A stretch of 64,000 bases of DNA from positions 2,170,001-2,234,000 of the forward strand of contig NZ_CP036501.1 in assembly GCF_026230195.1 (NCBI RefSeq), in the 5' to 3' direction. The number at the start of each line of letters is the position of its first letter. The first letter of the stretch is position 1. The position numbers were made by a program, and so were the translations under genes. Source of the DNA: Candidatus Paraluminiphilus aquimaris. GTDB taxonomy: Bacteria; Pseudomonadota; Gammaproteobacteria; Pseudomonadales; Halieaceae. This document shows positions 5,744 through 26,431 of this stretch, piece by piece. Below the pieces are notes generated by a model. The model did no database searches. It was not told where the DNA came from and saw only the letters and a list, made by a program, of their open reading frames with translations.

Positions 5744-7324
5744 TTACCAAAATGCGACGTAAATAAGCACAAGGATCAAGCATATCGCGATGGAGGCAAC
5801 GTTGAATCCTTGTGTAGTGCCAAATCGAATATCTCCCAACACAACAGGCTGCGCCTCCTCGGGCGCGCGTGTCAGGCGTGACACGACAACACCGAATGCC
5901 ACGTTTAGCAGAAACACCAGCCAGATACGCAAGACAAAGGGCAAATCAGGCATGCTCATTTTCAGGACTAGACTTGCTACCACAGAGCCAACAAGCACGG
6001 CGTAAGCGCTTGCCTCATTAGCACGACGATCGAAAAAGCCGAGTAAGAAAATGATTACCACGCCGGGGGCGATAAAGCCTGTGTATTCCTGAATGGTTTG
6101 AAAGGCGCTCTCCATGCCACCGAGAAATGGCCGAGCAAGCACCAAAGCGAGTAACATCGCGACAAAAGCAACCACGCGACCAACTGTGACAAAGTGCGCC
6201 TCGTCTTTGTTTCCCGCCGTGTATTGCCGATAAATATCCATCGTGAAGATAGTGGCAATCGAGTTCATCATGGACGCGAGTGATGACACTATCGCCGCAA
6301 TTAATGCCGCAAAAACGAGCCCACGGAGCCCCTCAGGCGCGAGCTTCATCAGCTCCCCATAGGTTCGATCTGACTTCTCATTCAGCACGTCGTAGGCGAG
6401 AGCACCGTCTTGCGCAAGAACGAGCGCCGCGATACCGGGTATCACCACGATAAGTGGAATCAGCAGCTTTAGAAATGCGGCGAAAGCCAGCCCTTTTTGC
6501 GCCTCAGCTAAGCTCTCTGCACCGAGTGCTCGTTGAATGATGTATTGGTTGAATCCCCAGTAAGAAAAATGAAGCACCCATAGGCCGCCCAGTAGGGTCC
6601 ATATTCCTGGTAGGTCGCTATAATTTGGGTGCGATTCGTCGAGAATCATTTCAAAGTGACCCGGCACCTCTTCACCCAGTCTCGAGAGTCCTGCGCCTGC
6701 ACCATTACCCGCGCCTACGGCATCCAAGGCTATCCAGGTAATGGCTAAACCACCAAAGATGAGTATGACGACCTGAATAATATCGGTCAGTGCCACAGCC
6801 TTGAGACCGCCATAAATGGAGTAAATGACCGCGAAGGCCGCAAGCGCCATCATCGCTAGAGTGACATCAAGACCCGTAAGGCTCTCTATCGCCAAACCGC
6901 CTAACCATAAAACGGCTGTCAGGTTCACCGCGGTGTAAAGTACTATCCAATAAAACGACATTAGCGTCTTCACGCCGGTGCCATACCGCGTTTGTAAAAA
7001 CTGCGGCATGGTATAAATCTCGCGCTTCAAGAAAATGGGTAGGAAGTACTTGGCGACCAGCAGCAGTACAATGGCAGCCTGCCATTCATAAGCTGCAATC
7101 GCCAAACCGACAACAAAGCCTTGACCCGACTGTCCAATGATTTGTTCAGCCGAAATATTTGCAGCAATAAGAGACGCGCCGATCGCCCACCAAGGCAGCG
7201 TTCTGCCTGCAAGAAAATAGTCCTCGGTGGTTTTCGCTTGTCCTGAATCGCGTGAAACCCACTGAGCGATAGCAAATAAACCAATGGCATAAACTGCCAC
7301 AATTGCCAGATCAATAGAGCCCAT
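5744..7324 (-). CDS. sodium/solute symporter (SSS family, SGLT-like)
   Basis: A 526 aa polytopic inner-membrane protein with about 14 hydrophobic segments. It would import a sugar with Na+. The N-terminal TTEDYFLAGRTLPWWAIGAS is the SSS family signature, and IGQSGQGFVVG, YGGLKAVALTDIIQV and SLASMMNSIATIFTMDIY follow as in Vibrio SGLT. The ATG at 7324 has an AAGGGGG ribosome site. It lies 44 bp downstream of the GH3 gene on the same strand, so the pair is probably one operon. Glucose or a beta-glucoside is the likely substrate given that neighbour, but this is inference. Confidence 0.92.
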   Translation of the reverse strand: MGSIDLAIVAVYAIGLFAIAQWVSRDSGQAKTTEDYFLAGRTLPWWAIGASLIAANISAEQIIGQSGQGFVVGLAIAAYEWQAAIVLLLVAKYFLPIFLKREIYTMPQFLQTRYGTGVKTLMSFYWIVLYTAVNLTAVLWLGGLAIESLTGLDVTLAMMALAAFAVIYSIYGGLKAVALTDIIQVVILIFGGLAITWIALDAVGAGNGAGAGLSRLGEEVPGHFEMILDESHPNYSDLPGIWTLLGGLWVLHFSYWGFNQYIIQRALGAESLAEAQKGLAFAAFLKLLIPLIVVIPGIAALVLAQDGALAYDVLNEKSDRTYGELMKLAPEGLRGLVFAALIAAIVSSLASMMNSIATIFTMDIYRQYTAGNKDEAHFVTVGRVVAFVAMLLALVLARPFLGGMESAFQTIQEYTGFIAPGVVIIFLLGFFDRRANEASAYAVLVGSVVASLVLKMSMPDLPFVLRIWLVFLLNVAFGVVVSRLTRAPEEAQPVVLGDIRFGTTQGFNVASIAICLILVLIYVAFW

Positions 7325-7368: not shown

Positions 7369-9867
7369 CTAGTCGAGCAGCAGTGTGTCGTTAACGAGGT
7401 CAGCACACGACGCGATCGAGCGAATCTCTGGCATCGTTGTCAACTTAATCTCCGATATGTCGAGCGTTATATCACCCTCAGTCGCCAGAACGAAGGCTGT
7501 ATTTACTTGCGCTAAGTTCAAGCCTGCCTCTTGGAAACACGCCACCGGAACGGCCCGCTTAGTCCACTCACCGAGAGGTGAATCCAGCAGGACTTTCGTG
7601 AAGCGCACAGCGCCCGAACATGGGTATTTACAGTCCATGCGCAGTTCCACCACCGACGTCGGCATACGCTGAACTCTAAACTCGATAGACAAGGCTCCGC
7701 CCGCGTCATTGAGCGCCGTTAAATCCGTCGGGTACTCTGACTGCATGTAGACTTGGGATACACCGGCCCCATTCCCTACGAAAGTAACTCGACGCGCGTC
7801 CTCTTGAACCAACCGGTCAATAGCCTCAATCGTGACGCTACCCGTTGATGACTGTGAACTGCTCGAAGTGGCCTCCACTTCCCAGTCACTCGCATCGCCG
7901 GAAAAGAGTCGCCAGGATCCGCGTGGGCCGCCATTAAATACTTCTTGGTCCAAGCTGTTATCGGCTCCGATCATTACCTCAGAGAGCGCGACCCAGGGAC
8001 GGGACTCATCTACTGTAAGTCCATAGCCAAGAGGGAAAATGAACTCGTCCACCGGGAGATCCCGATCACGTGCATTAACGTCCAAACCGGGCCACGCCAT
8101 GGGTAGCTTTCCCGCAAAGTCGTATTGCACACGACCCGCGGCATCTCGCAGAAGAACGTCAGCAACGCCCTGCCCCTCGCTTCCGGGAAGCCAGGAGACC
8201 ACGAAGGCATCGCTGAGATTGAGAATATCGTTTACCCACATTGGGCGACCTGTCAAAAAGACCGCTACTACAGGAATACCGCGTTGCTTCAACGCTTTCA
8301 TACGAGACCGCTCTGCGCGCTGGTCATACCAAGCGACCGAATAGACGTCCCCCTGCATCTCAGCATAAGGCGTCTCTCCGAAAACAAAGATCGCCGCATC
8401 AACCTCCGCCGACTCGTCAGTGGTGACGCTACCTCCTGCCGACTCGATTTGCTGGGTCAAACCCTCCAATATTGACATCGCGCCCGGAAAGTCTGTGTTG
8501 GCGTTGCCAGTACCCTGCCAGCTTATGGTCCATCCACCGCTTTGCTGTCCAATATTGTCAGCGCCAGGTCCCGCTACCAAATAGCGGCGATCTGCATGCA
8601 AAGGCAGCAGGTTGTCGCTGTTTTTGAGTAGAACTTGCGATTTGCGCACGGCCTCGCGCGCCAGAGCGCGGTGCTCAGGATGTCCAATCTGATCGCGATA
8701 CTCCGCGGCAAAGGTCGATGGCTGCCCACGAGTAAATAACCCCGCTTTTATTTTCATTACGAGAATGCGCGATACTGCTTCATCGATCCTCGCCTCAGCA
8801 ATCTCGCCAGAGGCTACTTGCGCGAGCGTATTGTGATAGAGCGACTTCCACTCGGCAGGCACCATGAGCATGTCCACGCCGGCGTTAATCGCTTGCGCGC
8901 AGTCATCGTTGGTGCAGCCCGCAACCTCACCAATACCGTTCCAGTCGCTAACGACCATACCTTCAAAGCCCATCTCACCTCGAAGCAAATCGGTAAGAAT
9001 TGCTTTGCTGCCGTGAATTTTGTCGCCATACCAGCTATTAAAGGATGACATGACACTCATAACATCCTTATCAATCGCTTCCACATACCCCTGTCCATGG
9101 ACTGCAATTAACTCATCCAAAGGTAGAGTCGTTTCGCCTCGGTCATCTCCACGCAACGTACCGCCGTCCCCAATGAAGTGCTTAGCCGTCGATGCGATCC
9201 CTTCGGCCTGCATCGCTTCGACGATTGGAGCAACGAAACTGCCGGCGATGGCTGGGTCCGAGCTGAACGATTCGTACGTTCGTCCCCATCTGGCATCCTT
9301 CGCAACCGCAACGGTTGGCGCGAAAATCCAGTCGATGCCCGTTGCTTTGACCTCTCGGGCCGTGGCTCCGATGATCTGTTTCACAAGCTCGGGGTCACGC
9401 GTCGCACCCAGACCAATGTTGTGCGGAAACAACGTCGCGCCCATCACATTGTTGTGACCGTGAACGGCATCTGTCCCCCAGACGATAGGTATACCTGCGC
9501 TGCCTTCTGTGGTGTCTACCGACGCTTCATAGTAGGCATTAGCAAGATCGACCCAATCCTCCACCGTCGCGTATTTGTTTTCCTGAGGAAATGACCCACC
9601 GCCGTTTAAGACGCTGCCTAAACCAAACTCGCGCACATCCTGCGCAGAAACATCGCGAATTTCGCCCTGAATCATCTGGCCGACTTTATGCCGCAAGGTG
9701 AGTTGACTGGTTATGGCGTCGGCACAGGCTTTTATGTCCACTGAAGTGGTCGCAGCTTGAGCACAGCTCAAATCAACATGGGCGCCCTGTGTCGCTGGCT
9801 TCGTGCCGCAAGCTGCCAAGGTCATAACTACTAATGTGGAATAGGTGAGGTGTCGTGCAAGGCGCAT
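7369..9867 (-). CDS. GH3 exo-beta-glucosidase/glucanase lipoprotein (ExoP-like)
   Basis: The 832 aa protein has a lipoprotein signal: a basic start, then hydrophobic residues and the lipobox LAAC with Cys20. The GH3 N-domain (about 55-400) has GIPIVWGTDAVHGHNN, GIDWIFAPTVAVAKD and TAKHFIGDGGT, with the nucleophile Asp308 in VVSDWNGIG. The second GH3 domain includes SQVLLKNSDNLLPL and QSGGWTISWQGTG. The C-terminal 180 residues form a beta-sandwich resembling the ExoP C-terminal domain (LRMDCKYPCSG). It would trim glucose from beta-1,3/1,4-gluco-oligosaccharides in the periplasm or at the outer membrane. It is transcribed with the symporter and divergent from the TonB receptor. A paralogue is at 29250-31940. 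Confidence 0.93.
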   Translation of the reverse strand: MRLARHLTYSTLVVMTLAACGTKPATQGAHVDLSCAQAATTSVDIKACADAITSQLTLRHKVGQMIQGEIRDVSAQDVREFGLGSVLNGGGSFPQENKYATVEDWVDLANAYYEASVDTTEGSAGIPIVWGTDAVHGHNNVMGATLFPHNIGLGATRDPELVKQIIGATAREVKATGIDWIFAPTVAVAKDARWGRTYESFSSDPAIAGSFVAPIVEAMQAEGIASTAKHFIGDGGTLRGDDRGETTLPLDELIAVHGQGYVEAIDKDVMSVMSSFNSWYGDKIHGSKAILTDLLRGEMGFEGMVVSDWNGIGEVAGCTNDDCAQAINAGVDMLMVPAEWKSLYHNTLAQVASGEIAEARIDEAVSRILVMKIKAGLFTRGQPSTFAAEYRDQIGHPEHRALAREAVRKSQVLLKNSDNLLPLHADRRYLVAGPGADNIGQQSGGWTISWQGTGNANTDFPGAMSILEGLTQQIESAGGSVTTDESAEVDAAIFVFGETPYAEMQGDVYSVAWYDQRAERSRMKALKQRGIPVVAVFLTGRPMWVNDILNLSDAFVVSWLPGSEGQGVADVLLRDAAGRVQYDFAGKLPMAWPGLDVNARDRDLPVDEFIFPLGYGLTVDESRPWVALSEVMIGADNSLDQEVFNGGPRGSWRLFSGDASDWEVEATSSSSQSSTGSVTIEAIDRLVQEDARRVTFVGNGAGVSQVYMQSEYPTDLTALNDAGGALSIEFRVQRMPTSVVELRMDCKYPCSGAVRFTKVLLDSPLGEWTKRAVPVACFQEAGLNLAQVNTAFVLATEGDITLDISEIKLTTMPEIRSIASCADLVNDTLLLD

Positions 9868-10274: not shown

Positions 10275-13226
10275 ATGGATCGTCACTTGTTTGCAAAAAA
10301 ACGCGTTTCGCTTGCCGTCTCTCTTGCTCTCGGAGCAGTGGCCGCATCTCCTGTCATGGCACAGGACGGCGAGAACGCCAATGGCCAGATGATGGAAGAA
10401 GTCGTCGTCACGGGTATTCGTTCAAGTCTCAAGCGCGCAATGGACACGAAGCGAGATGCGACTGGTGTCGTAGATGCTATTACGGCTGAAGACATCGGTG
10501 ACTTCCCCGACACAAACTTGGCCGAAGCGCTCCAACGTATCACTGGTGTCGCAATTGACCGGGACCGCGGTGAAGGTGCTCGAGTCACGGTTCGAGGTTT
10601 TGGCGCCGACTTCAACTTGGTCACGCTAAACGGCCGCCAGATGCCAACGCACAGTGGCCTTGGACGCTCATTCGACTTCGGTGATATTGCCTCGGAGAGT
10701 GTTTCGGGCGTCGAGGTATACAAGACGGCGCAAGCCAGTGTCCCCACGGGTGGCATTGGTGCAACCATCAACGTGCTGACAGCGAAGCCGCTGGATAATC
10801 CCGGCCTGTCTGCATCGCTCGCCGCTCGAGGCGTGAAGGATCAAAGTTCCTTCACCGGTGATGAGTGGACTCCCGAAGTGGCGTTCCTGCTCTCTAACAC
10901 ATTCATGGACGACACTGTTGGTATCGCAATAACCGGTAGCTTCCAGGAGCGACAATCGGGACAGGCGTCTGGATCAAACGGCAACTGGCTCGAGCGCGAT
11001 GGCGTTGGCGTGCCCGATAACGGTCAACAGATCAATGGCCCCGTACCGGGCGACATAGTGGGCTTGCCACAGCAGCAGACCTACACACTCGACGAATGGG
11101 ACCGTGAGCGAACAAATGCGCAGGTCACGTTGCAGTGGAGCCCTATCGAGACACTAACGGCAACCCTCGACTACACCTACGCGGAACTTGATCTCCGACA
11201 CACGGCCAACAGCATGTCGGTTTGGTTCAGCCCAACAGGTCAATCGGGTAACTGGGTTCGCGAGGGCAACGTCGTTAGCCCATTGGTTTACACCGAGACA
11301 AACAACCAGCCCGACTTCTCTATGGGTGCGTTCTCTGATGCATCGATTAATGAGCGCAAGTCGACTGGCTTAAACCTCAAGTGGGATCCTACGGACCGCT
11401 TGAGTCTGGAACTCGACTACCACGACTCCGAAGCAACACGAAACCCCAACAGTGCATTCGGGAGCTCTGGCCAAGTTTCAATGTCAATCTTTGGACGCGA
11501 ATTGACCTCGGTCAACTACACCAACGAGCTGCCTGTGTTAACCCTTGGGATGGCCGAGCCTATTTCGCCTGACGACCTACAAATCTCTGGGTCAGTTTTC
11601 AATAACAACTGGGCAGACATGGGCATCGAGCAGGTCCAGTTCGACGGTAGCTTTGAGCTGACAGACACGCTGGTACTGGACTTTGGCGTGGCTCAAACAG
11701 AAGTGGATAACTACACGGCTGGCTCAAACGTACAGCGGAATACATGGGGACAAAACCAGACGTCTGCGTTTGGCAGTGTTGCCGACCTCGTTGTACCGGC
11801 CTCTTTGGCGGGCGTTTTCAGCGAGTTATCAGGTGGCGATCAAGTCAACAACAACTTCTTTATGGCCAATATGGAGGATCTCGCAGCACGTGCTGAGTTC
11901 CTGCAAAGCTTGCCCGAAAGTAACCCAATGCATCTGGCGACCGCCTCCAATTTGGGTGACTGCGGTACCGGCTTCTGTGCGAGTTCAACGCCTGACAGCG
12001 AAGATTTCTTTGAAGAAGATACATTCGCTGCTTATTTGCAACTTAACTTTGCGGGCGAAATTTTTAACCGCCCCTTCAACGTTCGCGCTGGTGTGCGACA
12101 CGAAGAGACCGAGGTGGTTTCAAGTACAGCGGCACAAGCGTACGACCGCGTTGAATGGCGCTCAACGAACGAATTCGAAATTATCCGAGCAGAAGGAAGC
12201 GTACCGTCTGCGCTCGCGGGCGAGTATGACTTCACACTCCCTTCTATCGACTTCGATATGGAGTTAACCGACAACTTGGTATTACGCGCATCGGCAAGCC
12301 AAACGATTGCTCGCGCAGGATACGGGTCGCTCGTCGGCACCTTGAACCTTCCCACCATCACGCGGGTTGACCAAGGTATTCCAGGCGAAGCGATTGCATC
12401 GGTCGGTAACCCAGGTCTCTTACCTTACGAGTCGGATAACCTCGATTTCTCGCTAGAGTATTACTACGGAGAGGCGAGCTATATCTCTGCAGGATACTTT
12501 GACAAGAAAGTCCGCAACTGGATCGCCGGAGGTATTCTCGAAAACGTCATCCTGAATGATCAGCTGGCAAGTCCAGGTCTTGGCCCACTCTATAACGATG
12601 CGGCTGCGGCACTGCAAGCTCAGAACGGTGTCTACCCTGGAAACGCAGAGATTCGTGATTACATCTTCGCCAACTTTGCTGATCAACCAGGTGTGGACGC
12701 TGCGAACCAGGTTATTACGGGTGTTGTCGGTCGAGATGATGCTGTGCCCTTCAACGTCAATACGCTCACCAACAGTGATCGTGAAGAAGGGATCGACGGC
12801 TGGGAATTGGCATGGCAACACAACTTCTGGGACACGGGCGTTGGCTTCATTGCGAACATGACCATTGCGGATGGCTCTGCTGTCTACGATAACCAGCTGA
12901 ACGAGAGCCAGTTCGCGCTTGCGGGCTTGTCCGACACACGTAACTTCATCCTGTTCTACGATAAGTATGGACTTCAGGCTCGTGTTGCCTACAACTGGCG
13001 TGACGGTTACTACACAGGTGGTGATCTCAAGCCTGGCTACCAGACCGAGTATGAGCAGTGGGATGCCAACATCACGTACGAACTTACCGATGGTTTGGTT
13101 GTGTTCGTAGAGGGCATCAACATTACCAACGAGACATTCCGCTCTCATGGTCGTAGCCAGTACCAGACCTACGGCGTTGGTCAGATCGGTGCGCGCTACA
13201 ACGTAGGCTTCCGCTACAACTACTAA
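10275..13226 (+). CDS. TonB-dependent receptor (Caulobacter-type, glycan uptake)
   Basis: The 983 aa outer-membrane protein has a signal peptide ending near AVAASPVMAQ (residues 20-30) and a TonB-box-like EEVVVTG at about 41-47. The plug domain follows with DTNLAEALQRITGVAIDRDRG, VTVRGFGADFNLVTLNGRQM and a 22-strand-type barrel. The end VGFRYNY carries the terminal aromatic typical of barrel proteins. This receptor class (TIGR01782-like) usually imports plant or algal oligosaccharides, and neighbouring GH16 and GH3 enzymes point to beta-glucan fragments. No SusD partner is present, as expected outside Bacteroidetes. A terminator follows at 13250, before the halogenase operon on the same strand. 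Confidence 0.94.
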   Translation: MDRHLFAKKRVSLAVSLALGAVAASPVMAQDGENANGQMMEEVVVTGIRSSLKRAMDTKRDATGVVDAITAEDIGDFPDTNLAEALQRITGVAIDRDRGEGARVTVRGFGADFNLVTLNGRQMPTHSGLGRSFDFGDIASESVSGVEVYKTAQASVPTGGIGATINVLTAKPLDNPGLSASLAARGVKDQSSFTGDEWTPEVAFLLSNTFMDDTVGIAITGSFQERQSGQASGSNGNWLERDGVGVPDNGQQINGPVPGDIVGLPQQQTYTLDEWDRERTNAQVTLQWSPIETLTATLDYTYAELDLRHTANSMSVWFSPTGQSGNWVREGNVVSPLVYTETNNQPDFSMGAFSDASINERKSTGLNLKWDPTDRLSLELDYHDSEATRNPNSAFGSSGQVSMSIFGRELTSVNYTNELPVLTLGMAEPISPDDLQISGSVFNNNWADMGIEQVQFDGSFELTDTLVLDFGVAQTEVDNYTAGSNVQRNTWGQNQTSAFGSVADLVVPASLAGVFSELSGGDQVNNNFFMANMEDLAARAEFLQSLPESNPMHLATASNLGDCGTGFCASSTPDSEDFFEEDTFAAYLQLNFAGEIFNRPFNVRAGVRHEETEVVSSTAAQAYDRVEWRSTNEFEIIRAEGSVPSALAGEYDFTLPSIDFDMELTDNLVLRASASQTIARAGYGSLVGTLNLPTITRVDQGIPGEAIASVGNPGLLPYESDNLDFSLEYYYGEASYISAGYFDKKVRNWIAGGILENVILNDQLASPGLGPLYNDAAAALQAQNGVYPGNAEIRDYIFANFADQPGVDAANQVITGVVGRDDAVPFNVNTLTNSDREEGIDGWELAWQHNFWDTGVGFIANMTIADGSAVYDNQLNESQFALAGLSDTRNFILFYDKYGLQARVAYNWRDGYYTGGDLKPGYQTEYEQWDANITYELTDGLVVFVEGINITNETFRSHGRSQYQTYGVGQIGARYNVGFRYNY

Positions 13227-13249
13227 ATCGGTACCGCAAAATCCTATTG

Positions 13250-13276
13250 AAAACCGCCCTTTTGGGCGGTTTTTTG
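13250..13276 (+). terminator. rho-independent terminator after the TonB receptor
   Basis: The stem aaaaccgccc/gggcggtttt with a tttt loop ends in a T-run. It separates the receptor from the halogenase operon 57 bp further on. It could be partial, with read-through setting a lower level of the downstream genes. Confidence 0.88.
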
Positions 13277-13332: not shown

Positions 13333-14901
13333 ATGGCTCAACACGATATCAAAGACATTGTAATTGTTGGCGGAGGCACCGCTGGCTGGTTGACCGCGAA
13401 TATTATTGCGGCTCGATTTTGCCCTGAGAAAGGTCGCGGTCTCCAGGTAACACTTGTCGAGTCGCCCAACGTGCCCACCGTTGGCGTAGGCGAAGGCACA
13501 TGGCCGTCGATGCGAACAACCCTTAAAGATATTGGGATTGCCGAGGCAGACTTCATTCGCTCATGTGATGCCTCGCTTAAGCAGGGCACATGGTTTAAAG
13601 ATTGGATCACAACGGGCGATACACCCTACTACCACCCGTTCTCACTGCCAGAAGGGTTTGACACCGTAAATCTTGCTGAGCACTGGCTCGCGGGAGCGGC
13701 GGGCAATGTGCCCTTTGCAGAGGCTGTGACCCCACAGTATGCCGTCTGTGAGCTTGGGAGGGCGCCGAAACAAATTGGCATTCCTAATTATGCGTATACC
13801 GTTAATTACGGATACCACCTCGACGCGGGTAAATTTGCAGCGCTGCTCACAAAAAATGCCACCGAAAAACTTGGAGTCAAGCACCTTCATGCGGACGTGG
13901 TCAGCGTTAATACCGATGAAAACGGGTACATAACAGGCGTAGTGACTGAGCAAGCAGGTGAAATCTGTGGAGACCTATTTATCGACTGCTCCGGCTTTCA
14001 AAGTCTACTCCTTGGTCAGCATTATGGTACTGAGCAAGTGTCTGTTGAGTCGATACTCTTCAATAACGCGGCCGTGGCCGTACAAGTGCCCTACCCCGAC
14101 GAAACAACGCCTATTGCGACAACGACACACTCTACTGCCCAAAAGAACGGTTGGGTCTGGGATATAGGACTTCAGCACCGTCGTGGTGTTGGACACGTCT
14201 TCTCTAAAGACTTCCAGTCTCATGAAGAAACCCTTCAGGTCCTTGATCAGTATCTCAAAGACACAGGTCGATCGAAGGGACTGGAAGATCTGAATCCCCG
14301 ACTGCTGAGTTTCGATCCAGGTTACCGCGAAAAGTTCTGGGTAAAGAATTGCCTTGGCATTGGTTTGTCGGCGGGCTTCATTGAACCGCTGGAAGCATCC
14401 GCGTTGGTACTTGTAGAGCTAAGCGCAGCCGCCCTGGCTAATCAGATGCCACGTGATCGGAGCGATATGACGGTGATTGCGGATCGCTTCAATCGAGAAT
14501 TTGAGGGGCGCTGGTCGCAAATTATTGACTTCCTCAAGCTCCACTACGTGCTATCAAAGCGAGATGATTCAGCCTATTGGACCCGTAACCGCGCCCCTGC
14601 CTCCATACCCGATACACTGCAAGAAAATCTCATTGTTTGGGCTAATCGCGCGCCTTGGTATCATGATGACCTGCGGCGTGATGAGATGTTCCCTGCAGCC
14701 AGCTACCAGTACGTATTGTATGGTATGGGGTTCGAATCGCGACTGACCTTTGATGCCCTTCGCTCTAGCGAAGATAAACGGTCAATGGCAAAGCAGCTAT
14801 TTGCGGAGACGCAGAAAAAGGCGCAAAAATATGGGCAGTTTCTGCCGCCTACACGCTTTTTAATGAATCAAATACGCGAGCAGGACTTCGCGAGAATTTA
14901 G
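13333..14901 (+). CDS. flavin-dependent tryptophan-halogenase family protein (copy 1)
   Basis: The 522 aa FAD protein belongs to the PrnA/RebH family. The FAD site GGGTAGW is at 13-19 and VGVGEGTWPSM at about 50-60. The family catalytic lysine is matched by Lys83 (SLKQG), and the Glu near the halide pocket by Glu354 (EPLEASA). The family WxWxIP motif is altered to WVWDIG at 274-279, so true halogenase activity is doubtful. No dedicated flavin reductase is nearby. It is the first gene of a four-gene operon (spacings 10, 4 and 7 bp) with SapC, a cupin protein and a second copy. The role in glycan use is unknown. Related clusters next to TonB receptors are common in Caulobacter and Alteromonadales-like bacteria (family knowledge). 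Confidence 0.87.
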   Translation: MAQHDIKDIVIVGGGTAGWLTANIIAARFCPEKGRGLQVTLVESPNVPTVGVGEGTWPSMRTTLKDIGIAEADFIRSCDASLKQGTWFKDWITTGDTPYYHPFSLPEGFDTVNLAEHWLAGAAGNVPFAEAVTPQYAVCELGRAPKQIGIPNYAYTVNYGYHLDAGKFAALLTKNATEKLGVKHLHADVVSVNTDENGYITGVVTEQAGEICGDLFIDCSGFQSLLLGQHYGTEQVSVESILFNNAAVAVQVPYPDETTPIATTTHSTAQKNGWVWDIGLQHRRGVGHVFSKDFQSHEETLQVLDQYLKDTGRSKGLEDLNPRLLSFDPGYREKFWVKNCLGIGLSAGFIEPLEASALVLVELSAAALANQMPRDRSDMTVIADRFNREFEGRWSQIIDFLKLHYVLSKRDDSAYWTRNRAPASIPDTLQENLIVWANRAPWYHDDLRRDEMFPAASYQYVLYGMGFESRLTFDALRSSEDKRSMAKQLFAETQKKAQKYGQFLPPTRFLMNQIREQDFARI

Positions 14902-14911
14902 GTGGATAACG

Positions 14912-15628
14912 TTGGGAAACATACAAAAGTTAAACAATGTTGAGCATGCTCAACTAAAAATAAAGCAGTCAGCCTGCGACGCCGATCACGTCATGTTCTC
15001 GCCAATTTACACCACGGAAATGCGGGCACTACAAAGCAATTTTCCGCTCATGTTTTATAAGTCACCCAACGATGGAAGTTTTTCACCCGTCGCACTTTTT
15101 GGGTTTGAGCAGGGTGAGAACCTGTTTATCCATGAGAATCGTTGGACAAGCCAATATATCCCTATGCTGATTCAACGTGGCCCCTTGATGATTGCGACAG
15201 AGGGGCAGACCGCGACAGGCGAGACATCGCGTGTGATCGCGATCGACATGGAGCACCCCAATGTATCCGATATCGAGGGCGAGCCACTTTTCTTGGAGTT
15301 TGGGGGCAATACGGCTTACCTGGACCGGCTCGCCGCAATGCTTGAAGGTATACATCAAGGGCACACCCTAACACCGTCCTTTGTAGACGCCCTTAATCAG
15401 CACAACCTCATTACAGCCATAACGCTTAAAATCACGCTCAACAACGGGCAGGAGCATGCACTAGAAGGGTTCTACGCCATCGACGATGAGACGCTGCAAA
15501 CGCTCAACGAAGAGGCGACCACTGACCTCCACCGCCGAGGATATCTGCTTCCCGCCTACATGATGGTGGCGTCCCAATCTCAACTAAAGCGTTTGATAGA
15601 ATTAAAAAACGCCAAGGTTACAACTTAG
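14912..15628 (+). CDS. SapC family protein
   Basis: The 238 aa protein starts with TTG at 14912, preceded by AGGTGG that overlaps the stop of the halogenase gene. Conserved SapC features are HVMFSPIYTTEMRALQSNFPLMF near residue 25, FGFEQGENLFI, RWTSQYIPMLIQRGPLMI, and a C-terminal FYAIDDETLQTL and GYLLPAYMMVASQSQLKRL. SapC was named from an S-layer/secretion locus in Campylobacter, but its biochemical role is not known. It has no signal peptide or membrane segment, so it is probably cytosolic. Its fixed place between halogenase and cupin genes suggests the four products act together. Confidence 0.85.
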   Translation: MGNIQKLNNVEHAQLKIKQSACDADHVMFSPIYTTEMRALQSNFPLMFYKSPNDGSFSPVALFGFEQGENLFIHENRWTSQYIPMLIQRGPLMIATEGQTATGETSRVIAIDMEHPNVSDIEGEPLFLEFGGNTAYLDRLAAMLEGIHQGHTLTPSFVDALNQHNLITAITLKITLNNGQEHALEGFYAIDDETLQTLNEEATTDLHRRGYLLPAYMMVASQSQLKRLIELKNAKVTT

Positions 15629-15632
15629 GTTA

Positions 15633-16655
15633 ATGCCTGTGCTTAAGCACGCAACTGCTATAACGGAAGTCCAGCTATCACCAGGCACCCCGCCGTCTGA
15701 AGCACTCTTGCTTTCGGATACGCCATGGGTGGCCCGTGGCTATGTCGCTGACTGGCCGCTGGTCAAAGCCGCAGCACGTGGAGCGGACGATGCGCTTGCC
15801 TACATTGCCGGCTTTTACCAAGGTCGGCCGGTTAATGCTTTTTTAGCAGAGCCTGAATTCGAAGGCCGTTTCTTTTACAACGACGACCTCACCGGCTTTA
15901 ACTTTATACAGGTTAATACGCAATTAACGCAGGTCTTTGAAAAGCTGTTGGCGTTTTCGACGAGCAATGAGAAAAACCCCGCCCTCTATGTTGGAAGCAC
16001 TCAAACGAGTGCTTGGCTACCGGGCTTTAACGAGGCTCATCCACTGCCCTGCAATTTACCGGAACCGATGACCAGCCTATGGATTGGGAACGAATCACGG
16101 GTTGCAGCGCACTTCGATTTTCCACGTAATATTGCGTGCTGTGTACTGGGTGAGCGACGATTTACAGTGTTCCCTCCGGAGCAAGTAGAGAATCTTTATG
16201 TTGGACCATGGGACCTAACGCCCGCGGGACAGCCCATCAGCATGGTAGATTTTCACAGCATTGATTACGCACAGTTTCCTAAATTTAAGGAAGCCGAAGA
16301 ACACGCTCAAACGACAACTCTAGAACCTGGCGATGTCATTTATCTGCCAAATATGTGGTGGCACCAAGTAGAGTCTCTTAGTCCTATCAATGGACTGGTC
16401 AACTTCTGGTGGCAAGAGACACCGGGTGTTTATGGGTCACCAACTGAAGCCCTCAAGCATGCATTTCTGAGCATACGCTCACTACCCTTACATCAGCGTA
16501 AGGCCCTTAAGACGATGTTTGATCACTACGTCTTCGCAGAGACCACAGAACATCTCGAACACCTGCCAGAAGCAAGCTGGGGCCGGTTGGGCGGTATCTC
16601 TGACACACTCGCCCGACAGCTACGTGCTGAACTCACTAATTCGTTAAAACGGTAG
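15633..16655 (+). CDS. cupin-like/JmjC-type domain protein
   Basis: The 340 aa protein has the cupin_8/JmjC-like layout of Fe(II)/2-oxoglutarate hydroxylases. The metal ligands are readable as HFD in RVAAHFDFPRN (about residue 160) and a late His in PNMWWHQVESL (about 247). ERRFTVFPPEQVENLYVGP between them matches the family. It starts at ATG 15633, four bases after the SapC stop, and is followed seven bases later by the second halogenase gene. It may hydroxylate a protein or peptide side chain, as related JmjC proteins do. The substrate is unknown and this role is inference. Alternative roles are a non-catalytic cupin or sugar isomerase-like protein. Confidence 0.83.
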   Translation: MPVLKHATAITEVQLSPGTPPSEALLLSDTPWVARGYVADWPLVKAAARGADDALAYIAGFYQGRPVNAFLAEPEFEGRFFYNDDLTGFNFIQVNTQLTQVFEKLLAFSTSNEKNPALYVGSTQTSAWLPGFNEAHPLPCNLPEPMTSLWIGNESRVAAHFDFPRNIACCVLGERRFTVFPPEQVENLYVGPWDLTPAGQPISMVDFHSIDYAQFPKFKEAEEHAQTTTLEPGDVIYLPNMWWHQVESLSPINGLVNFWWQETPGVYGSPTEALKHAFLSIRSLPLHQRKALKTMFDHYVFAETTEHLEHLPEASWGRLGGISDTLARQLRAELTNSLKR

Positions 16656-16662
16656 CCAAACC

Positions 16663-18153
16663 ATGAAGCAGCGCACAGTAAACAATGTTGTTATCGCAGG
16701 CGGTGGAACCGCGGGCTGGATGGCGGCCGCCGCGCTATCACGTTTAGTGGGCCGGAAGATTAACGTCACGCTCGTCGAATCGGAAGAAATTGGCACCGTG
16801 GGGGTTGGCGAAGCGACGATCCCCACCATACTTACAATTAACCGTCTCCTTCAAATACCCGAGCCCGACTTCATTAAATTAACCAGTGGCACATTCAAGC
16901 TAGGAATTCGCTTTGAGAACTGGCGCAAGCAAGGCGAGGATTACATACACTCCTTTGGTGACACCGGTAAGGGCAGCTGGGCTGCTGGCTTCCATCATTT
17001 TTGGCTACGTGCAAAAGAAATGGGCCTTGCGGAAGAGTATGGCGAGTACTGCACCGAGCTTAAGGCGGCAGAGGCGGAGCGATTTGCAATCACCAGCCAG
17101 AATAAGTTGAACTACGCCTATCACCTTGATGCGACGAAATACGGTATGTATCTCAGGAGGCTCGCCGAGTCGTCAGGTGCCACACGTATAGAGGGCAAGA
17201 TTAAGCGTGTTGAGACGTCGTCTGAAGATGGTTTCATCGAAGCACTTCACCTCGAAGATGGTCAGCGCATTGAGGGCGATCTATTTATCGACTGCACAGG
17301 TTTCAGAGCGCTCTTAAGCGAAGGTGCCCTCGCTACTGGTTTTGATGACTGGAGTCACTGGCTCCCCGCAAATCGCGCTTGGGCGGTGCAAAGCGAGTTA
17401 AAGGAACACCCCAAGCCTTACACACGGGCTATCGCTCATAAAGTCGGCTGGCAGTGGCGGATCCCGCTGCAACATCGAGCAGGCAATGGGCTTGTCTACA
17501 GCAATGAATTCATGGACGACGACACCGCGAGAGAACTTCTACTCTCGAATGTGCCTGATAAGCCTCTCACCGAGCCGCGTCCTATCAAGTTTGTAACGGG
17601 ACAGCGCAAGCAGTATTGGAACAAGAACTGTATCGCCATTGGTCTGTCGAGTGGCTTTATTGAGCCTTTAGAGTCGACGAGCATTCACTTCATTCAAAAC
17701 GGCATCATGTGGCTACTACTGATGTTCCCAGATGCCTGCATCGAGCCAAGCACAGTGAACGAGTACAATCGAACGATGCGCTCGGAGGCAGAGCATATTC
17801 GGGACTTTATTGTCCTTCATTACACTCTGAATCAGCGCCATGGTGATCCCTTCTGGGATTATTGCAGAAATATGGATCTGCCCGATTCACTCAAGCATCG
17901 TATGGAACTCTTCGAGCGCTCCGCGCGGGTATTCAAACCCCAGGACGATGTCTTTGCAGAGAATTCGTGGGTTCAGGTAATGATGGGCCAAGGTATGGAG
18001 CCGCAGGGCTATCACAACATCGCTCAAGCAATGTCTGAATCCCAAATGACGGCGTTTTTAAAAGGCATACAGCACGAGGTCGCCCAAACCGTTGCCAAAC
18101 TTCCTGAACACGGCGCGTTTGTTAAGACCCTTGTCCAGCACGCCCGTGTTTAG
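16663..18153 (+). CDS. flavin-dependent tryptophan-halogenase family protein (copy 2)
   Basis: The 496 aa protein is clearly related to copy 1 but keeps the complete halogenase signature. It has GGGTAGW (13-19), VGVGEATIP (46-54), the catalytic lysine at Lys79 (GTFKLGIRFENW), WQWRIP (263-268) and the EPLESTS pocket with Glu337. This intact set supports real flavin-dependent chemistry, either halogenation or a related oxidation. It needs FADH2 from a reductase that is not in the window. It is the last gene of the operon. Its stop overlaps by four bases the stop of the convergent thrombospondin-repeat gene, leaving no room for a terminator. Confidence 0.9.
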   Translation: MKQRTVNNVVIAGGGTAGWMAAAALSRLVGRKINVTLVESEEIGTVGVGEATIPTILTINRLLQIPEPDFIKLTSGTFKLGIRFENWRKQGEDYIHSFGDTGKGSWAAGFHHFWLRAKEMGLAEEYGEYCTELKAAEAERFAITSQNKLNYAYHLDATKYGMYLRRLAESSGATRIEGKIKRVETSSEDGFIEALHLEDGQRIEGDLFIDCTGFRALLSEGALATGFDDWSHWLPANRAWAVQSELKEHPKPYTRAIAHKVGWQWRIPLQHRAGNGLVYSNEFMDDDTARELLLSNVPDKPLTEPRPIKFVTGQRKQYWNKNCIAIGLSSGFIEPLESTSIHFIQNGIMWLLLMFPDACIEPSTVNEYNRTMRSEAEHIRDFIVLHYTLNQRHGDPFWDYCRNMDLPDSLKHRMELFERSARVFKPQDDVFAENSWVQVMMGQGMEPQGYHNIAQAMSESQMTAFLKGIQHEVAQTVAKLPEHGAFVKTLVQHARV

Positions 18154-21398: not shown

Positions 21399-21880
21399 CT
21401 GGACACATCTATGTAACGACACCACAAAACGATTCCCGAGAAATTCAGAAGGAATGTGGACCCACAGATCAGTCTTACTGCGCCGCGAATGCTTGTCACT
21501 TACGTACACTCCTGCCATACGTAAGTTTGCGGCAATTTCGCTAGTTATCTTAGTAAAAACGCCTTTCTAAGCGTTAATTAGACATCAATGTGACATCCCC
21601 CGAACCCAAACGTCGTTGAGGATTGCTTTTTCGATACCTATCTTCGCTCACTGACCAATGGTTTTAGCTCGGATTACCTCAACCCGAGCCCACGTCTGTT
21701 CATCCCGAAGTTTCTAGTCTCACGTTCGCTGATATTGGGTAAGAGACGTGTGGTTGAAATCCCTTATTCCTGAGCCCTCTTTACGTCTGCGCTTAAGCCC
21801 AGCCCCCATATTGAGATCGTCCAACCCACGAGCAAAAAAAAAGCCGGGCATAGCCCGGCTTTAATTTGCTCGTAGTGACC
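21399..21880. other. non-coding region between the thrombospondin-repeat and GH16 genes
   Basis: About 480 bp upstream of the thrombospondin-repeat gene and downstream of the GH16 gene, both on the minus strand. It holds the GH16 terminator at its right end. The remainder should contain the promoter of the repeat protein. If translation starts at 21518 instead, the region shrinks to 362 bp. No other gene is seen. Confidence 0.5.
21834..21864 (-). terminator. rho-independent terminator of the GH16 gene
   Basis: On the minus strand an aaagccgggc/gcccggcttt stem with a three-base loop is followed by a run of about ten T. It lies 20 bp after the GH16 stop. Confidence 0.92.
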
Positions 21881-24800
21881 TTAACGCGTCAGCAGGTAAT
21901 TCCACCAAACGCCATCACCTGCTTCAACAGTGACCGACATCGTGCCGTCTTCGTTTAAGTAAGCGTTGTAGTCAATGCCCGCTGGTACCGCGGCGGCCGA
22001 ATCGATTTCCGCACCGTTAATCGCTTTAGGAATGCCGATGTAGGCCCCTGCACCAGAGAGAGATAGCGTATTCATTTCAGCATCGAATACAAACGATGCC
22101 GGAGCCGAGCCATCATGCGGAGCGACAGGAGCACCACACTCTTCCGCACCACCTGACTGCCAGGGCTCAAGCCATGTATCGCCATCTTGAACGTTACTGA
22201 ATGAACCATCTGCGCCAAAGACGTAGGCATCATCGAAGTAGCAGGCGCGAAGGGCTGTGACACCCGCGTCGTTACTCCACCACGTTACGTCAAACTCAGC
22301 CGGACCCACACCCAACGATCCATCGGATTGCGCCATGTACCAAGTACCGGCAATCGGTGATGGCTCAGCAGGACCTGCCGTCTTAACGATTTTGTAGTTC
22401 CACCACACACCGTCTCCAGCCTCAACCGTGACAGCATAGGAGCCATCCTCTTGCTCGTAGACGTTGTAAGTGATGCTTCCTGGTACGTCAGCTGCTGAGC
22501 TGATCTCCGCACCATTGATCGCCTTTGGTAACCCAATGTAAGACCCTTGACCACCAATAGTCAGCGTACCCGCTTCTTGATCATGGCTCCATGTACCGGG
22601 AATCGAGCCGTCGTGTGGAGCTACAGGTGCCCCACATTCCTCAGCACCACCAGACTGCCATGGCTCTAGCCACGTCTCATCCTGATACTCGACTTGGAAA
22701 CTACCGTCTGAATTAAAGACGTATTCATCATCGAAGTAGCAAGCACGCGCAGCAAGAACGCCCTCATCAGCCATCCACCAAGTGACATCAAACTCGGCAG
22801 GTCCCACACCCAAGGAGCCGGCTTCTGGAGCCATCATCCAAGTGCCCTCAAAGGCAGATGGCGCGGGTGGTTCAGCCGTCTTGATGAACTTGTAGTTCCA
22901 CCAGACACCTGCACCGGCTTCAACCGTGACGAGAAGCGAACCGTCGTCTTCTTCGTAAGCGTTGTAGACAATGCTTCCGGGCGTATCACCAATTGACGCG
23001 AGCTCTGCACCATTCACAGCCTTAGCGAGACCCATGTAGGAACCCTGACCGTTAATAGTGAGTGTTTGAGCCGCTTCATCGTACTCAAAGGTGGCGTCGA
23101 TAGACCCGTCATGCGGTGCAATAGGCGCGCCGCAAGTGTCAGCCTCGACACCCTGCCATGCCTCTAGCCACGTCTCATCGCCGAGGACGTTTCGGAATGA
23201 TCCGTCGCGGCCAAAGACGTATTCGTCATCGTAGTAGCAAGCACGGAGCGCAATAACGCCGTCGTCACCGTTCCACCATGTCACGTCAAATTCCGCAGGA
23301 CCCACACCAAGTGAACCCGCCTCAGGCGCTAACATCCACGTCCCAAGAATGCCGGTGTCCTCTACTTCCTCACCTGCAAGACGCTCTAAGCGAACATTCG
23401 CCACTTTCAGAGACTTCCCACCCTGCTCACCGTTGGGTGAGAGGACGAGGAATGCCTTGACCGCTGCGAGGTTAAGCCGCCCACCTGGAGGGTTGTTTAA
23501 CTCCGCATTCGTAGAAAGCAGTAAATCTGCAATCGGTATCTCGAAGCTCTTCCAAGTACCTGCAACATAGCCGGCAAGGTCGAGTTCAATAGGACCCGTG
23601 CCCTGCGGATACTCGTTCTCAACCTTGTAGATGACTCCATCCGCCGCAGTCGCAGCCGTAAGGTTAATGTCGAACTTGAGTGTGCCGCCGTTAGAGTCGC
23701 TCAAATCGAGACCCTGGTCATCCTTCACAAACCAAGCACCACCGACGCCTGCACCGAAGTCAACCTGCACAGCATTAACGCCAATCGAATCATCACCCGT
23801 CGGAACAACTGACCAAGTGACCTGATTCGAAGTATTACCATCGCAGTAATCATCAGCGAACGCATTTTCAGCAGAGACTGCGCAAATACCGGGTGACCAA
23901 GCTGAACCCGCCTGACCGTTCTCATCAATGACCGTAATCACTAGATCATCAGTGGCACGTGCCGGTGCGGAAACACCACAATCGCCACCTGGAGTACCAC
24001 AGACAAGACGAATGTTGTCCAGTTGAACGTGCGCTGCAGCGCTCGGCTCAATCACAACAAGGTTTTGTACCGCGCCTAGCGCCAAAGTGCGGTCTCCGCG
24101 GTTCGCGAGTAATTGATTAATCGAGACACTGTAGGAGAACCACTCGTTTGTCGGCATGTCGGCAACATTGAGCGACACGAAGCCCAGCGCCGGGTAGCCG
24201 CTGTCCATTTTGATAGCAATAGAGCTGCCGGGAGCCGTCATTGAGCTGTCAATGTACATGTCGAACTTGAGCTCACCACCACCGCGGTGGCCATAGACAT
24301 CAATGATTTTGCCATCAGCGGCATTAATGACGACGTTACCGCCACCGTCACTCATAACATCCAGAACGTTGCCTCGACCTTCTACGGCAACCTCTGACAC
24401 AGTTATGCCGATGGCGCCGTCGTTGTCATACCCGACCATAGCCTGGAGATCGCGCGTCACGTCACCTGTAAGGAATTCCCAAGTAAGGGGCCCAACTGAA
24501 TCAGTGTAGATATCAGTGGTAACAACCTCGGGGCTTTGCGCATCAGGGGACTCTAAAGAACGATCAGCGTATGTGTTACAGCCCGTACCGTTACCCGTCG
24601 CGTAGTTACACTCATAAACGCGAATGTAGTCGACCACCATCTCACCGGGGACGGCCGCAGGGTCTAGTTCAACGCCGGGTCCAACACCACCTACTGCGAG
24701 GTTCACGAGGAGGTGAAAATCTCGGTCAAAGGGTGCGGCAGGATCAGTTGCGAGTTGATAACCGTCCGTGCTGTCTTTGAAGTAGTAGCTGTAGTACACG

Positions 24801-25513
24801 TCCTTGCTAACCGTGCGCAAATGCTCTCCATCAACAAACCAACGCAGGTAGTCGCCGGACCACTCAAGCGCGTAGGTGTGCCAATCACTCGCGTCGTCCA
24901 CGTCGGCTCCAGCGGTTGTGATTTGGTTCAATGGCCATTCAAAACCGTAGTGCGCCGCGAGGAATACACCTTGGTTCTCGGTGCCTGCGTTGACCACTTC
25001 CATGATATCGACTTCGCCACTGGCAGCCCATACACCGTAGGGTGAGCTGGTTGGCAACATCCATATGGCAGACCACATACCATCACCCGGTGCGGCCTTA
25101 GACCTAATTTCTACGCGACCGTATTGGAAGTCGAACTTGTTAATCGAACGCATGCGAGACGACGTGTAGGCGCTGTTGCCGACACTTTCCTGTCGCGCTT
25201 CAATGACCAGAGAGGACTCCCCGTCCACCTCTTGGATAGACGCGTTGTCGGCTTGGTAATACTGAAGCTCGTAGTTACCCCAGCCTGGCAGACCATTGTC
25301 ACTTCCGTCCCCAGTCTGAAATGTCCAATTGCTCGAATCAACGCTGCTTCCGTTGAATTCGTCGGCCCACACAAGACTCCACTCTTCCTGCTCTTCTATA
25401 TAGAACGGCTCGGTCTCAGGCGACGAAGCACCTCCCCCACCACAAGCGTTCAGTAGTGCTGCCGCTAAGCCAATCCCTATCAGACGGCCATGACGATGCA
25501 AACGATCAAACAT
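21881..25513 (-). CDS. GH16 beta-glucanase (laminarinase-type) lipoprotein with triplicated C-terminal module
   Basis: The protein is 1210 aa from ATG at 25513, preceded by GGGGTTACTC. An in-frame TTG at 25525 is less likely. Lipobox LLNAC places the lipid on Cys24. The GH16 domain spans about 45-305 with the catalytic motif GEVDIMEVV (Glu167 nucleophile, Asp169, Glu172 acid/base). ANRAW-type loops are absent and the layout fits endo-beta-1,3-glucanases. Two beta-sandwich regions (about 335-505 and 525-715) resemble the ExoP C-terminal domain. Three tandem copies of a 156-residue module follow (724-879, 890-1045, 1055-1210). The enzyme should sit on the outer membrane and cut laminarin-like glucan for the TonB receptor. 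Confidence 0.92.
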   Translation of the reverse strand: MFDRLHRHGRLIGIGLAAALLNACGGGGASSPETEPFYIEEQEEWSLVWADEFNGSSVDSSNWTFQTGDGSDNGLPGWGNYELQYYQADNASIQEVDGESSLVIEARQESVGNSAYTSSRMRSINKFDFQYGRVEIRSKAAPGDGMWSAIWMLPTSSPYGVWAASGEVDIMEVVNAGTENQGVFLAAHYGFEWPLNQITTAGADVDDASDWHTYALEWSGDYLRWFVDGEHLRTVSKDVYYSYYFKDSTDGYQLATDPAAPFDRDFHLLVNLAVGGVGPGVELDPAAVPGEMVVDYIRVYECNYATGNGTGCNTYADRSLESPDAQSPEVVTTDIYTDSVGPLTWEFLTGDVTRDLQAMVGYDNDGAIGITVSEVAVEGRGNVLDVMSDGGGNVVINAADGKIIDVYGHRGGGELKFDMYIDSSMTAPGSSIAIKMDSGYPALGFVSLNVADMPTNEWFSYSVSINQLLANRGDRTLALGAVQNLVVIEPSAAAHVQLDNIRLVCGTPGGDCGVSAPARATDDLVITVIDENGQAGSAWSPGICAVSAENAFADDYCDGNTSNQVTWSVVPTGDDSIGVNAVQVDFGAGVGGAWFVKDDQGLDLSDSNGGTLKFDINLTAATAADGVIYKVENEYPQGTGPIELDLAGYVAGTWKSFEIPIADLLLSTNAELNNPPGGRLNLAAVKAFLVLSPNGEQGGKSLKVANVRLERLAGEEVEDTGILGTWMLAPEAGSLGVGPAEFDVTWWNGDDGVIALRACYYDDEYVFGRDGSFRNVLGDETWLEAWQGVEADTCGAPIAPHDGSIDATFEYDEAAQTLTINGQGSYMGLAKAVNGAELASIGDTPGSIVYNAYEEDDGSLLVTVEAGAGVWWNYKFIKTAEPPAPSAFEGTWMMAPEAGSLGVGPAEFDVTWWMADEGVLAARACYFDDEYVFNSDGSFQVEYQDETWLEPWQSGGAEECGAPVAPHDGSIPGTWSHDQEAGTLTIGGQGSYIGLPKAINGAEISSAADVPGSITYNVYEQEDGSYAVTVEAGDGVWWNYKIVKTAGPAEPSPIAGTWYMAQSDGSLGVGPAEFDVTWWSNDAGVTALRACYFDDAYVFGADGSFSNVQDGDTWLEPWQSGGAEECGAPVAPHDGSAPASFVFDAEMNTLSLSGAGAYIGIPKAINGAEIDSAAAVPAGIDYNAYLNEDGTMSVTVEAGDGVWWNYLLTR
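21884..23344 (-). repeat. three tandem copies of a 156-residue protein module
   Basis: The copies lie at 22877-23344, 22379-22846 and 21884-22351, separated by short Pro/Ala linkers. Each has GSLGVGPAEFDVTWW, RACYxDDxYVF, DGSF, TWLExW, CGAPxAPHDGS and a WWNY end. Two Cys per copy (RAC and CGAP) could form a disulfide. I recall similar modules at the end of Bacteroidetes glycan enzymes, but know no function for them. Confidence 0.9.
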
Positions 25514-25523
25514 GAGTAACCCC
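25514..25523 (-). promoter_or_regulatory. ribosome-site motif shared with the TonB receptor gene
   Basis: GGGGTTACTC lies directly before the GH16 ATG and is identical to the sequence at 10260-10269 before the receptor. The G-run is the likely ribosome site and supports the ATG over the upstream TTG. Confidence 0.4.
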
Positions 25524-25645
25524 AATTCATTGAATATTTAGTTAGTTTTAGCAGTGTGCTTTATCCCATATAGATGCGGGTCGCTTAATACAAACGCGAC
25601 GATAGGGACTTGGGGCGAGACAAGTGGGAAAGGCGTTGTTTTGCC

Positions 25646-26431
25646 TTATCCCATGAGGTCTTGAACGGCGGAGCGGTAGTTACGACTGACCTTTAAACTG
25701 ACCTCATCATCGAGGTGCAGCAGGCACTCACCCTTCGGAATGGCATCCACAGATCGCACCTTATGTAGGTTTACAATCGTTGAGCGATGAATCCTGACAA
25801 ACTGCGAGGACAGCTTTTTCTCCAACTCTTTCATAGTCGAGCGCAGGATGTAGGTTTGATTGCCCGCGTGCACACACATGTAGTCACCCGCAGCGTCAAT
25901 CCAGTCAATAGTCTCCAATTCGACGAGATGGGTATGCGGCCCATCCTTAATAGGAAGTCTCGCAGGACGCTCCTGAACATCGCCAGCAAGCAGCTCCGAA
26001 CCTCCTTCAAGCCCTGCAATTGCAGCGACCGCCGCCTCTTTTCCACTCTGTAATGCGACGGATAAGAGACGATCCTTTGCGCGAGCCACCGCTTCTATAA
26101 CGCGCTCCGACTCGAAAGGTTTTAGCAAGTAATCGACCGCGTTCGCCTCGAATGCGCGGACTGCGTATTCGTCGTACGCAGTGGCAAAAACCACTGCCGG
26201 CATAACATCACTCTGGCAACGCTTCACCACATCCAGTCCATTGAGACCCGGCATTTGGATGTCGAGAAACATAAGATCAACACTTTGTCTTTGTAGTTCG
26301 GCTAAGGCCTCTCTGCCGCTGCGGCATCGGGCGATAATCACAATATCGTCCACCGCACCCAACAGCCGCTCCATGTAGTCCAGTGCCAGGGGTTCATCGT
26401 CAACGATGAGCACTCTCAATTTTTCTGTCAT
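25646..26431 (-). CDS. LytTR-type response regulator
   Basis: The 261 aa regulator has an N-terminal receiver with the acidic pair DDEP (11-14) and phospho-acceptor Asp57 in LMFLDIQMPG. The conserved AVDYLLKPF ends the receiver. The C-terminal LytTR DNA-binding domain contains IDWIDAAGDYMCVH, ILRSTMKELEKKL and FVRIHRSTIVNLHKV. It belongs to the AlgR/LytR/YehT family, which binds direct repeats upstream of target genes. Its ATG overlaps the stop of the kinase gene (ATGA), so the two are translated together. It lies about 130 bp downstream of the GH16 start on the same strand and is a natural candidate regulator of the glucan genes. That link is inference. Confidence 0.93.
   Translation of the reverse strand: MTEKLRVLIVDDEPLALDYMERLLGAVDDIVIIARCRSGREALAELQRQSVDLMFLDIQMPGLNGLDVVKRCQSDVMPAVVFATAYDEYAVRAFEANAVDYLLKPFESERVIEAVARAKDRLLSVALQSGKEAAVAAIAGLEGGSELLAGDVQERPARLPIKDGPHTHLVELETIDWIDAAGDYMCVHAGNQTYILRSTMKELEKKLSSQFVRIHRSTIVNLHKVRSVDAIPKGECLLHLDDEVSLKVSRNYRSAVQDLMG

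Follow-up and report, generated by a model that had tools for sequence, protein, structure and literature searches.

Background

Flavin-dependent halogenases depend on reduced flavin adenine dinucleotide (FADH2). Two of them, Xcc4156 and BrvH, have open active sites and leave free tryptophan untouched; a peptide substrate has been suggested by their authors (PMC5945002, PMC7336383). BrvH converts free indole to 3-bromoindole, with an activity that is low by its authors' account (PMC5945002). In-vitro bromination of indole compounds is also described for the Xanthomonas enzymes, whose native substrates, like that of BrvH, are stated to be unknown (PMC7336383). One survey placed 83 of 103 genome-derived bacterial halogenases outside biosynthetic clusters (PMC8269204). 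Here we analyse a 64,000-nucleotide stretch of the genome of Candidatus Paraluminiphilus aquimaris (NZ_CP036501.1, positions 2,170,001 to 2,234,000; hereafter the window, in which positions are counted from its first nucleotide), where two halogenase genes, hal1 and hal2, enclose the genes of a SapC family protein and of a cupin oxygenase, the whole block standing behind a TonB-dependent receptor.

The block resembles that of BrvH in having a second halogenase gene next door (PMC5945002). The accessible parts of the two papers make no mention of a TonB receptor nor, in the case of BrvH, of a cupin (PMC5945002, PMC7336383); compared with Xcc4156 and BrvH, the present cassette additionally has hal1, SapC and the cupin. 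A precedent for tryptophan halogenation inside a peptide is MibH (PDB 5uao), cited in both papers (PMC5945002, PMC7336383). MibH differs in that it belongs to a peptide antibiotic pathway and is matched by hal2 at only 180.1 bits, and a MibH-type cluster differs further, the present cassette having no room for a precursor gene. A close relative of hal1 in the PDB is the halogenase-like protein 2pyx, which we take to come from Shewanella frigidimarina and for which we know of no function. JmjC-like cupins often hydroxylate proteins, and FIH, JMJD5 and JMJD7, the best PDB relatives of our cupin, share its conserved iron triad. Finally, Xanthomonas/Caulobacter-type TonB polysaccharide utilisation loci have in common with this locus a receptor, glycoside hydrolases (GH), an inner-membrane sugar transporter and a regulator; to our knowledge, such loci are not usually described as containing a modification cassette.

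A halogenase cassette behind a TonB-dependent receptor

Open reading frame (ORF) calling and profile searches show that the unit begins with a receptor of the TonB-Xanth-Caul subfamily (10275..13226, + strand; TIGR01782, 602.4 bits against a cut-off of 310), followed on the same strand after 106 bp by hal1 (13333..14901, +), a flavin-dependent halogenase of the 2pyx type (PF04820, 398.7 bits, cut-off 21). Behind it come the SapC family protein (14912..15628, +; TTG start; PF07277, 212.8 bits, covering profile positions 1-220 of 220), a cupin_8 or FIH-like 2-oxoglutarate oxygenase (15633..16655, +; PF13621, 219.4 bits) and hal2 (16663..18153, +), a halogenase of the Xcc4156/BrvH type (PF04820, 627.6 bits, cut-off 21). 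The four plus-strand genes are separated by 10, 4 and 7 bp, just as the original prediction had read them. A precursor peptide gene inside the cassette was considered and rejected for lack of room, small ORFs elsewhere in the window not having been searched. The host genome is a single contig of 2.72 Mb; its one SapC gene and its two strong PF04820 genes all lie inside the block, and one weak PF04820 match lies elsewhere.

The PF04820 profile spans the whole protein in both halogenases. hal1 aligns over its whole length with PDB 2pyx (526.1 bits), and hal2 has its nearest solved structure in Xcc4156 (PDB 6y1w, 612.7 bits), with BrvH (6frl) at 445.8 bits. The FAD motif is invariant in 69 aligned hal1 and 80 aligned hal2 sequences, as are the Lys and Glu that we presume to be catalytic (69/69 in hal1; K79 and E337, 80/80 in hal2), all these residues being assigned the roles usual in the family. 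The motif WxWxIP, which is held to mark halogenation, is kept nearly throughout in hal2 (W263 80/80, W265 79/80, I267 80/80, P268 79/80); hal1 reads WxWxIG in its place, and the residue after WxWxI is G in 56, A in 11 and S in 2 of its 69 sequences. In the cupin, the iron ligands H160, D162 and H244 (HxD...H) are present in 78/78 sequences, and R175, invariant in the alignment, appears to replace what we take to be the 2-oxoglutarate lysine of FIH. Judged by these catalytic residues, hal1, hal2 and the cupin look intact. A 99% identical hal2 homologue was found on a metagenome-assembled genome (MAG) of Halieaceae, the next of the matches listed being Halieaceae and Luminiphilus MAGs.

Because the FAD motif begins at residue 13 in both hal1 and hal2, neither has room for a signal peptide, so that a surface protein would have to be acted on before export. 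SapC and the cupin have no signal peptide either, as judged by eye. The supply of FADH2 is no puzzle, since a flavin reductase gene (PF01613; genome positions 2167868-2168296) lies 1.7 kb outside the window on its left side, at ~15 kb from hal1, and the same genome has another PF01613 gene far away; the absence of a flavin reductase, part of the original prediction, therefore does not extend beyond the window.

The cassette is a conserved and widespread companion of receptors

As SapC is too variable for a pattern search, hal2 was used as the query, which matched at least 594 stretches with at least 541 relatives; the best 80 of the 541, close ones favoured, were analysed. Receptors were classified in these 80 loci and in order-level loci (n=121). 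The exact order receptor-hal1-SapC-cupin-hal2 was present behind 54 of the 121, 33 were followed by none of the four genes, and the remainder had partial or longer sets, including SapC-cupin-hal2 (6), hal1-hal2 (6) and a lone hal2 (9). Relatives of hal2 occur, among others, in Alteromonas, Colwellia, Shewanella, Xanthomonas, Sphingobium, Qipengyuania, Parvularculaceae and Pelomonas. The full block is found in many proteobacterial genera, from the sea and from soil, in agreement with the related sets near TonB receptors named in the original prediction. A close homologue of Xcc4156, the hal2 of Xanthomonas maliensis (956.9 bits against 6y1w), is part of a receptor-SapC-cupin-hal2 cassette. Recurrence of one gene order in dozens of loci across different genera is more than chance would give, and we conclude that the block is a real, conserved and widespread receptor-linked module of known enzyme families. 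No description of it was found in the literature, as covered by titles and the beginnings of abstracts, with subscription papers mostly outside this scope.

A second sample, not selected by hal2, consisted of 199 near-complete Pseudomonadota genomes drawn evenly across the phylum. PF04820 (E<=1e-50) was found in at least 26 of them, the present genome included, these counts being lower bounds as up to 7 candidates were scored per genome. Leaving out the present genome, 66 loci were read in the 25 other positive ones. When ORFs of at least 350 aa were counted and clusters were defined by gaps of up to 600 bp, 82 of 98 halogenase genes stood in a tight cluster with a TonB receptor, 56 of them with a same-strand receptor upstream and 26 in another orientation. 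As a control with a different family of FAD enzymes, none of 30 FAD_binding_3 loci (26 genomes; the best 30 of the matches listed) had a receptor in the flanking DNA, read for up to 1.5 kb, against 47/98 halogenases with one within 1.5 kb. In the sampled Proteobacteria, PF04820 halogenases thus mainly accompany receptors, in many cases within glycan loci, and the glycan varies.

Within the genus, the receptor (E<=1e-100) was detected in 30 of 57 genomes, all 30 with a strong halogenase; in one of them (G064) the match is the halogenase of another receptor (L237), with its own cut off at a contig end. Five of the other 27 genomes, all drafts, have a strong halogenase and no such receptor match. 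Of 30 receptor loci, 26 extend far enough downstream to show the next gene, and in every one of these it is a cassette gene. The module thus behaves as an accessory unit within its genus. Across the class, a receptor homologue (E<=1e-80) was present in 8/276 genomes, the present one included, and outside the present genome 8 of the 9 receptors with visible downstream DNA were followed by a cassette gene, the exception being L347. A second receptor clade in the genus is accompanied by a lone hal2-type halogenase (L234, L235 and L237), and L236 and L238 have a hal2-type gene and no recognised receptor in the stretch examined. In two drafts of the genus (G002:C13 and G075:C207), a halogenase copy is interrupted by an in-frame stop, which may reflect the decay of single cassette genes or an assembly error.

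A hairpin between receptor and enzymes

The gap between the receptor and hal1 contains a strong terminator-like hairpin with an 11-bp stem and a T-rich tail (13249..13274, +). Such a hairpin was found in 54 of 73 receptor-to-cassette gaps, where 0.7 would be expected from shuffles that preserve base composition only, and in 0/54 of the within-cassette gaps of ~20 bp or more, which are shorter. The + strand of the receptor/hal1 gap showed no promoter-like site, though a separate promoter may exist. Read plainly, the hairpin would set the dose, giving much receptor and little enzyme, a ratio that fits enzymes acting on the receptor itself.

Candidate target residues in the receptor

Among the 16 tryptophans of the window's receptor, only W317 and W491 are invariant in 70/70 close cassette receptors, and H383 and Y736 are likewise invariant in all 70. 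Thirty receptors without a cassette keep W317 in 6, W491 in 6, H383 in 1 and Y736 in 1 case; a tandem receptor (L189_7076) and one with its cassette elsewhere in the locus (L094_6129) were excluded from this set, and L111, with a gap of 743 bp, was placed in the cassette set. An AlphaFold2 model of the receptor barrel reached a predicted local distance difference test score (pLDDT) of 85.3. Placed by strand order in this model, W317 and W491 would lie at the extracellular ends, H383 in the middle of the barrel and Y736 near the periplasm. The comparison names candidates, and in itself would be compatible both with modification and with plain sugar binding.

SapC

SapC (56 aligned sequences) gave a confident AlphaFold2 model (mean pLDDT 93.9; predicted template modelling score 0.87), with H12, E36, N70, W78, P84, P91, G123 and F127 among its invariant residues. 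Foldseek searches of the PDB and of viral libraries returned no match at E<=0.001; compared with these libraries, the modelled fold is possibly new. The idea that SapC is a hidden flavin reductase was rejected on the same grounds, a confident model without such a match. We found no role for SapC, in line with the original prediction, which had stated that none is known, and suggest that it may act as an adaptor.

SapC is matched by 35 plasmid records, of which 10 regions were opened, 9 of them annotated. Receptor, halogenase and SapC occur together in 5 of the 9, beside an agarase in Catenovulum, GH16 and GH3 in Sphingobium, galactosidases in Pseudoalteromonas, GH2 in Niveispirillum and GH95 in Sphingomonas. 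The other 4 have SapC without a receptor or halogenase, and in three plasmid loci (Sulfitobacter, Gemmobacter and Methylobacterium) SapC without a halogenase adjoins large exported proteins. On two plasmids (L037 and L039) SapC, without receptor or halogenase, is paired with DUF6447.

The receptor as a possible substrate

We suggest that the block is a receptor-coupled module whose cytoplasmic enzymes modify the receptor, the candidate substrate, before its export; this is our tentative choice, to which we give somewhat less than an even chance. The receptor would be made in bulk, and the downstream hairpin would pass part of the transcription, leaving the enzymes in catalytic amounts. SapC could serve as a cytoplasmic adaptor holding the unfolded receptor. 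The receptor's aromatic side chains, with W317 and W491 as first candidates, would be halogenated by hal1 and hal2, which consume FADH2, oxygen and bromide or chloride, and the FIH-like oxygenase would hydroxylate a further side chain. After export, the altered residues may tune or protect glycan binding. A wider proposal, that Proteobacteria add halogen and hydroxyl groups to the glycan receptors of their own outer membrane, with a low-dose module installing bromo- or chloro-tryptophan on the ligand face before export, is in our opinion more doubtful but worth serious consideration. We know of no enzymatic halogenation of a bacterial membrane receptor. Novel in this analysis are the hairpin in the receptor gaps, the confident SapC model without a PDB match and the invariant receptor tryptophans.

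Several observations weigh against modification of the receptor. Sixteen of the 98 halogenase genes have no receptor in their cluster (two of these, in L248 and L254, have one in the locus, beyond the gap limit), and SapC stands alone among unrelated genes in L233, L239, L240 and L243. The 19 distant cassette receptors keep W317 in 13, W491 in 10, H383 in 6 and Y736 in 13 cases, and no single target residue can therefore be universal. L224, a near relative with no cassette in the stretch examined, keeps W317, H383 and Y736, and in L347, which apparently has no cassette, Y736 and W908 are present. In the tree, the close cassette receptors form one group, so the conserved tryptophans may just bind sugar. 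The original prediction is borne out in part: its tie of the block to TonB receptors and glycan loci is supported by the phylum sample, although some halogenases lack a receptor in their cluster and glycan enzymes form only part of the neighbouring proteins.

The data point to the adjacent receptor as the place to look for the native target. If receptor modification proves true, Xcc4156-type enzymes and SapC gain a function; a receptor that carries halogen would take enzymatic halogenation beyond natural products into membrane proteins, and would give marine polysaccharide uptake a further layer of control. Should the receptor carry no halogen, the conserved tie between cassette and receptor would still need explaining.

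Alternative targets and the neighbouring genes

It may be that the target is a protein other than the receptor, such as another surface protein or a secreted glycosidase, or that the halogenase-like enzymes oxygenate tryptophan or tyrosine, options that we consider unlikely. In their favour are the departure of hal1 from the motif held to mark halogenation and the large exported proteins beside SapC, without a halogenase, in the three plasmid loci. Yet the receptor is the partner in most clusters, and the adjoining glycosidases vary or are absent; hal2, for its part, keeps WxWxIP nearly throughout, and its relatives brominate (PMC7336383).

A second alternative, which we regard as unlikely, is that the enzymes modify a small aromatic molecule (a halogenated signal, a siderophore-like ligand or a detoxified compound), either imported via the receptor or made in the cell, and that the receptor is merely its transporter. 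TonB receptors do carry small molecules, and the bromination of indole by BrvH and of indole compounds by the Xanthomonas enzymes is of this kind, but the indole activity of BrvH is low (PMC5945002, PMC7336383). Moreover, the non-ribosomal peptide synthetase (NRPS) condensation domain PF00668 is missing from the whole genome, as the original prediction of no NRPS implied for the window; polyketide synthase and indole genes were not searched genome-wide.

The neighbouring genes also speak against a small molecule. Of 125 phylum-sample neighbours listed, 117 were scanned (excluded were 4 receptor or halogenase ORFs already counted and 4 overlapping or doubtful ORFs), and among the 143 downstream and 101 upstream neighbours of hal2 relatives the scans covered 135 and 95, leaving out near-duplicates from L045, L046, L049, L050 and L060 and one L044 fragment. 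The top 25 families per batch hold no biosynthetic family, glycan and housekeeping genes being found instead. Outside the phylum-sample clusters, the alpha-amylase family provides the commonest neighbours, 13 of 117 proteins (6/59 and 7/58); other nearest neighbours among the families listed for these 59 and 58 proteins are GH3 (3 and 4), GH10 (3) and GH97 (3), with single GH95, GH43, GH1 and others. The receptor stays while the adjoining glycan genes vary between GH16/GH3, alpha-amylase, GH10, GH97 and agarase. A natural-product cluster was rejected on the absence of PF00668 and on these flanking families. A preference for positions beside indole or pyrrole genes, or for loci without glycan genes, did not emerge in the phylum sample, and the lean of the original prediction towards a large target over a free natural product stands. 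Its other suggested target, a phenolic group on the imported glycan, is highly improbable: genes for glycan enzymes and sugar transport are frequent in the neighbourhood and some plant glycans bear phenolic esters, but the halogenases adjoin genes of the alpha-amylase family (the commonest neighbours), GH97, agarase and GH16/GH3, beta-glucan and agarase loci with the module among them, whose usual glycans we take to be phenol-free.

Setting of the cassette and variant arrangements

In the window, the receptor is preceded by a GH3 glucosidase with an Exop_C domain (7369..9867, - strand; PF00933, PF01915, PF18559) and a sodium:solute symporter (SSF; 5744..7324, -; PF00474), and the cassette is followed at some distance by a GH16 beta-glucanase-like protein (21881..25525, -; PF00722) and a LytTR response regulator (25646..26431, -; PF00072, PF04397). 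With receptor, GH3, GH16 and SSF, the gene content is that of a TonB-receptor utilisation locus, presumably for beta-glucan, in agreement with the setting originally proposed for the block.

Arrays of 4 halogenase genes and a cupin gene, arranged as two opposed pairs, stand beside a receptor in L250, L252 and L261. A second cupin gene lies on the opposite strand downstream of hal2 in eight loci (L067, L072, L075, L076, L080, L082, L083 and L100), and DUF6445 proteins were seen among the downstream neighbours of L044-L123 (2/63 and 4/72 scanned). In the window itself, hal2 converges with the gene of a large protein with FG-GAP and thrombospondin type 3 repeats (18150-21518, -), the two overlapping by 4 bp.

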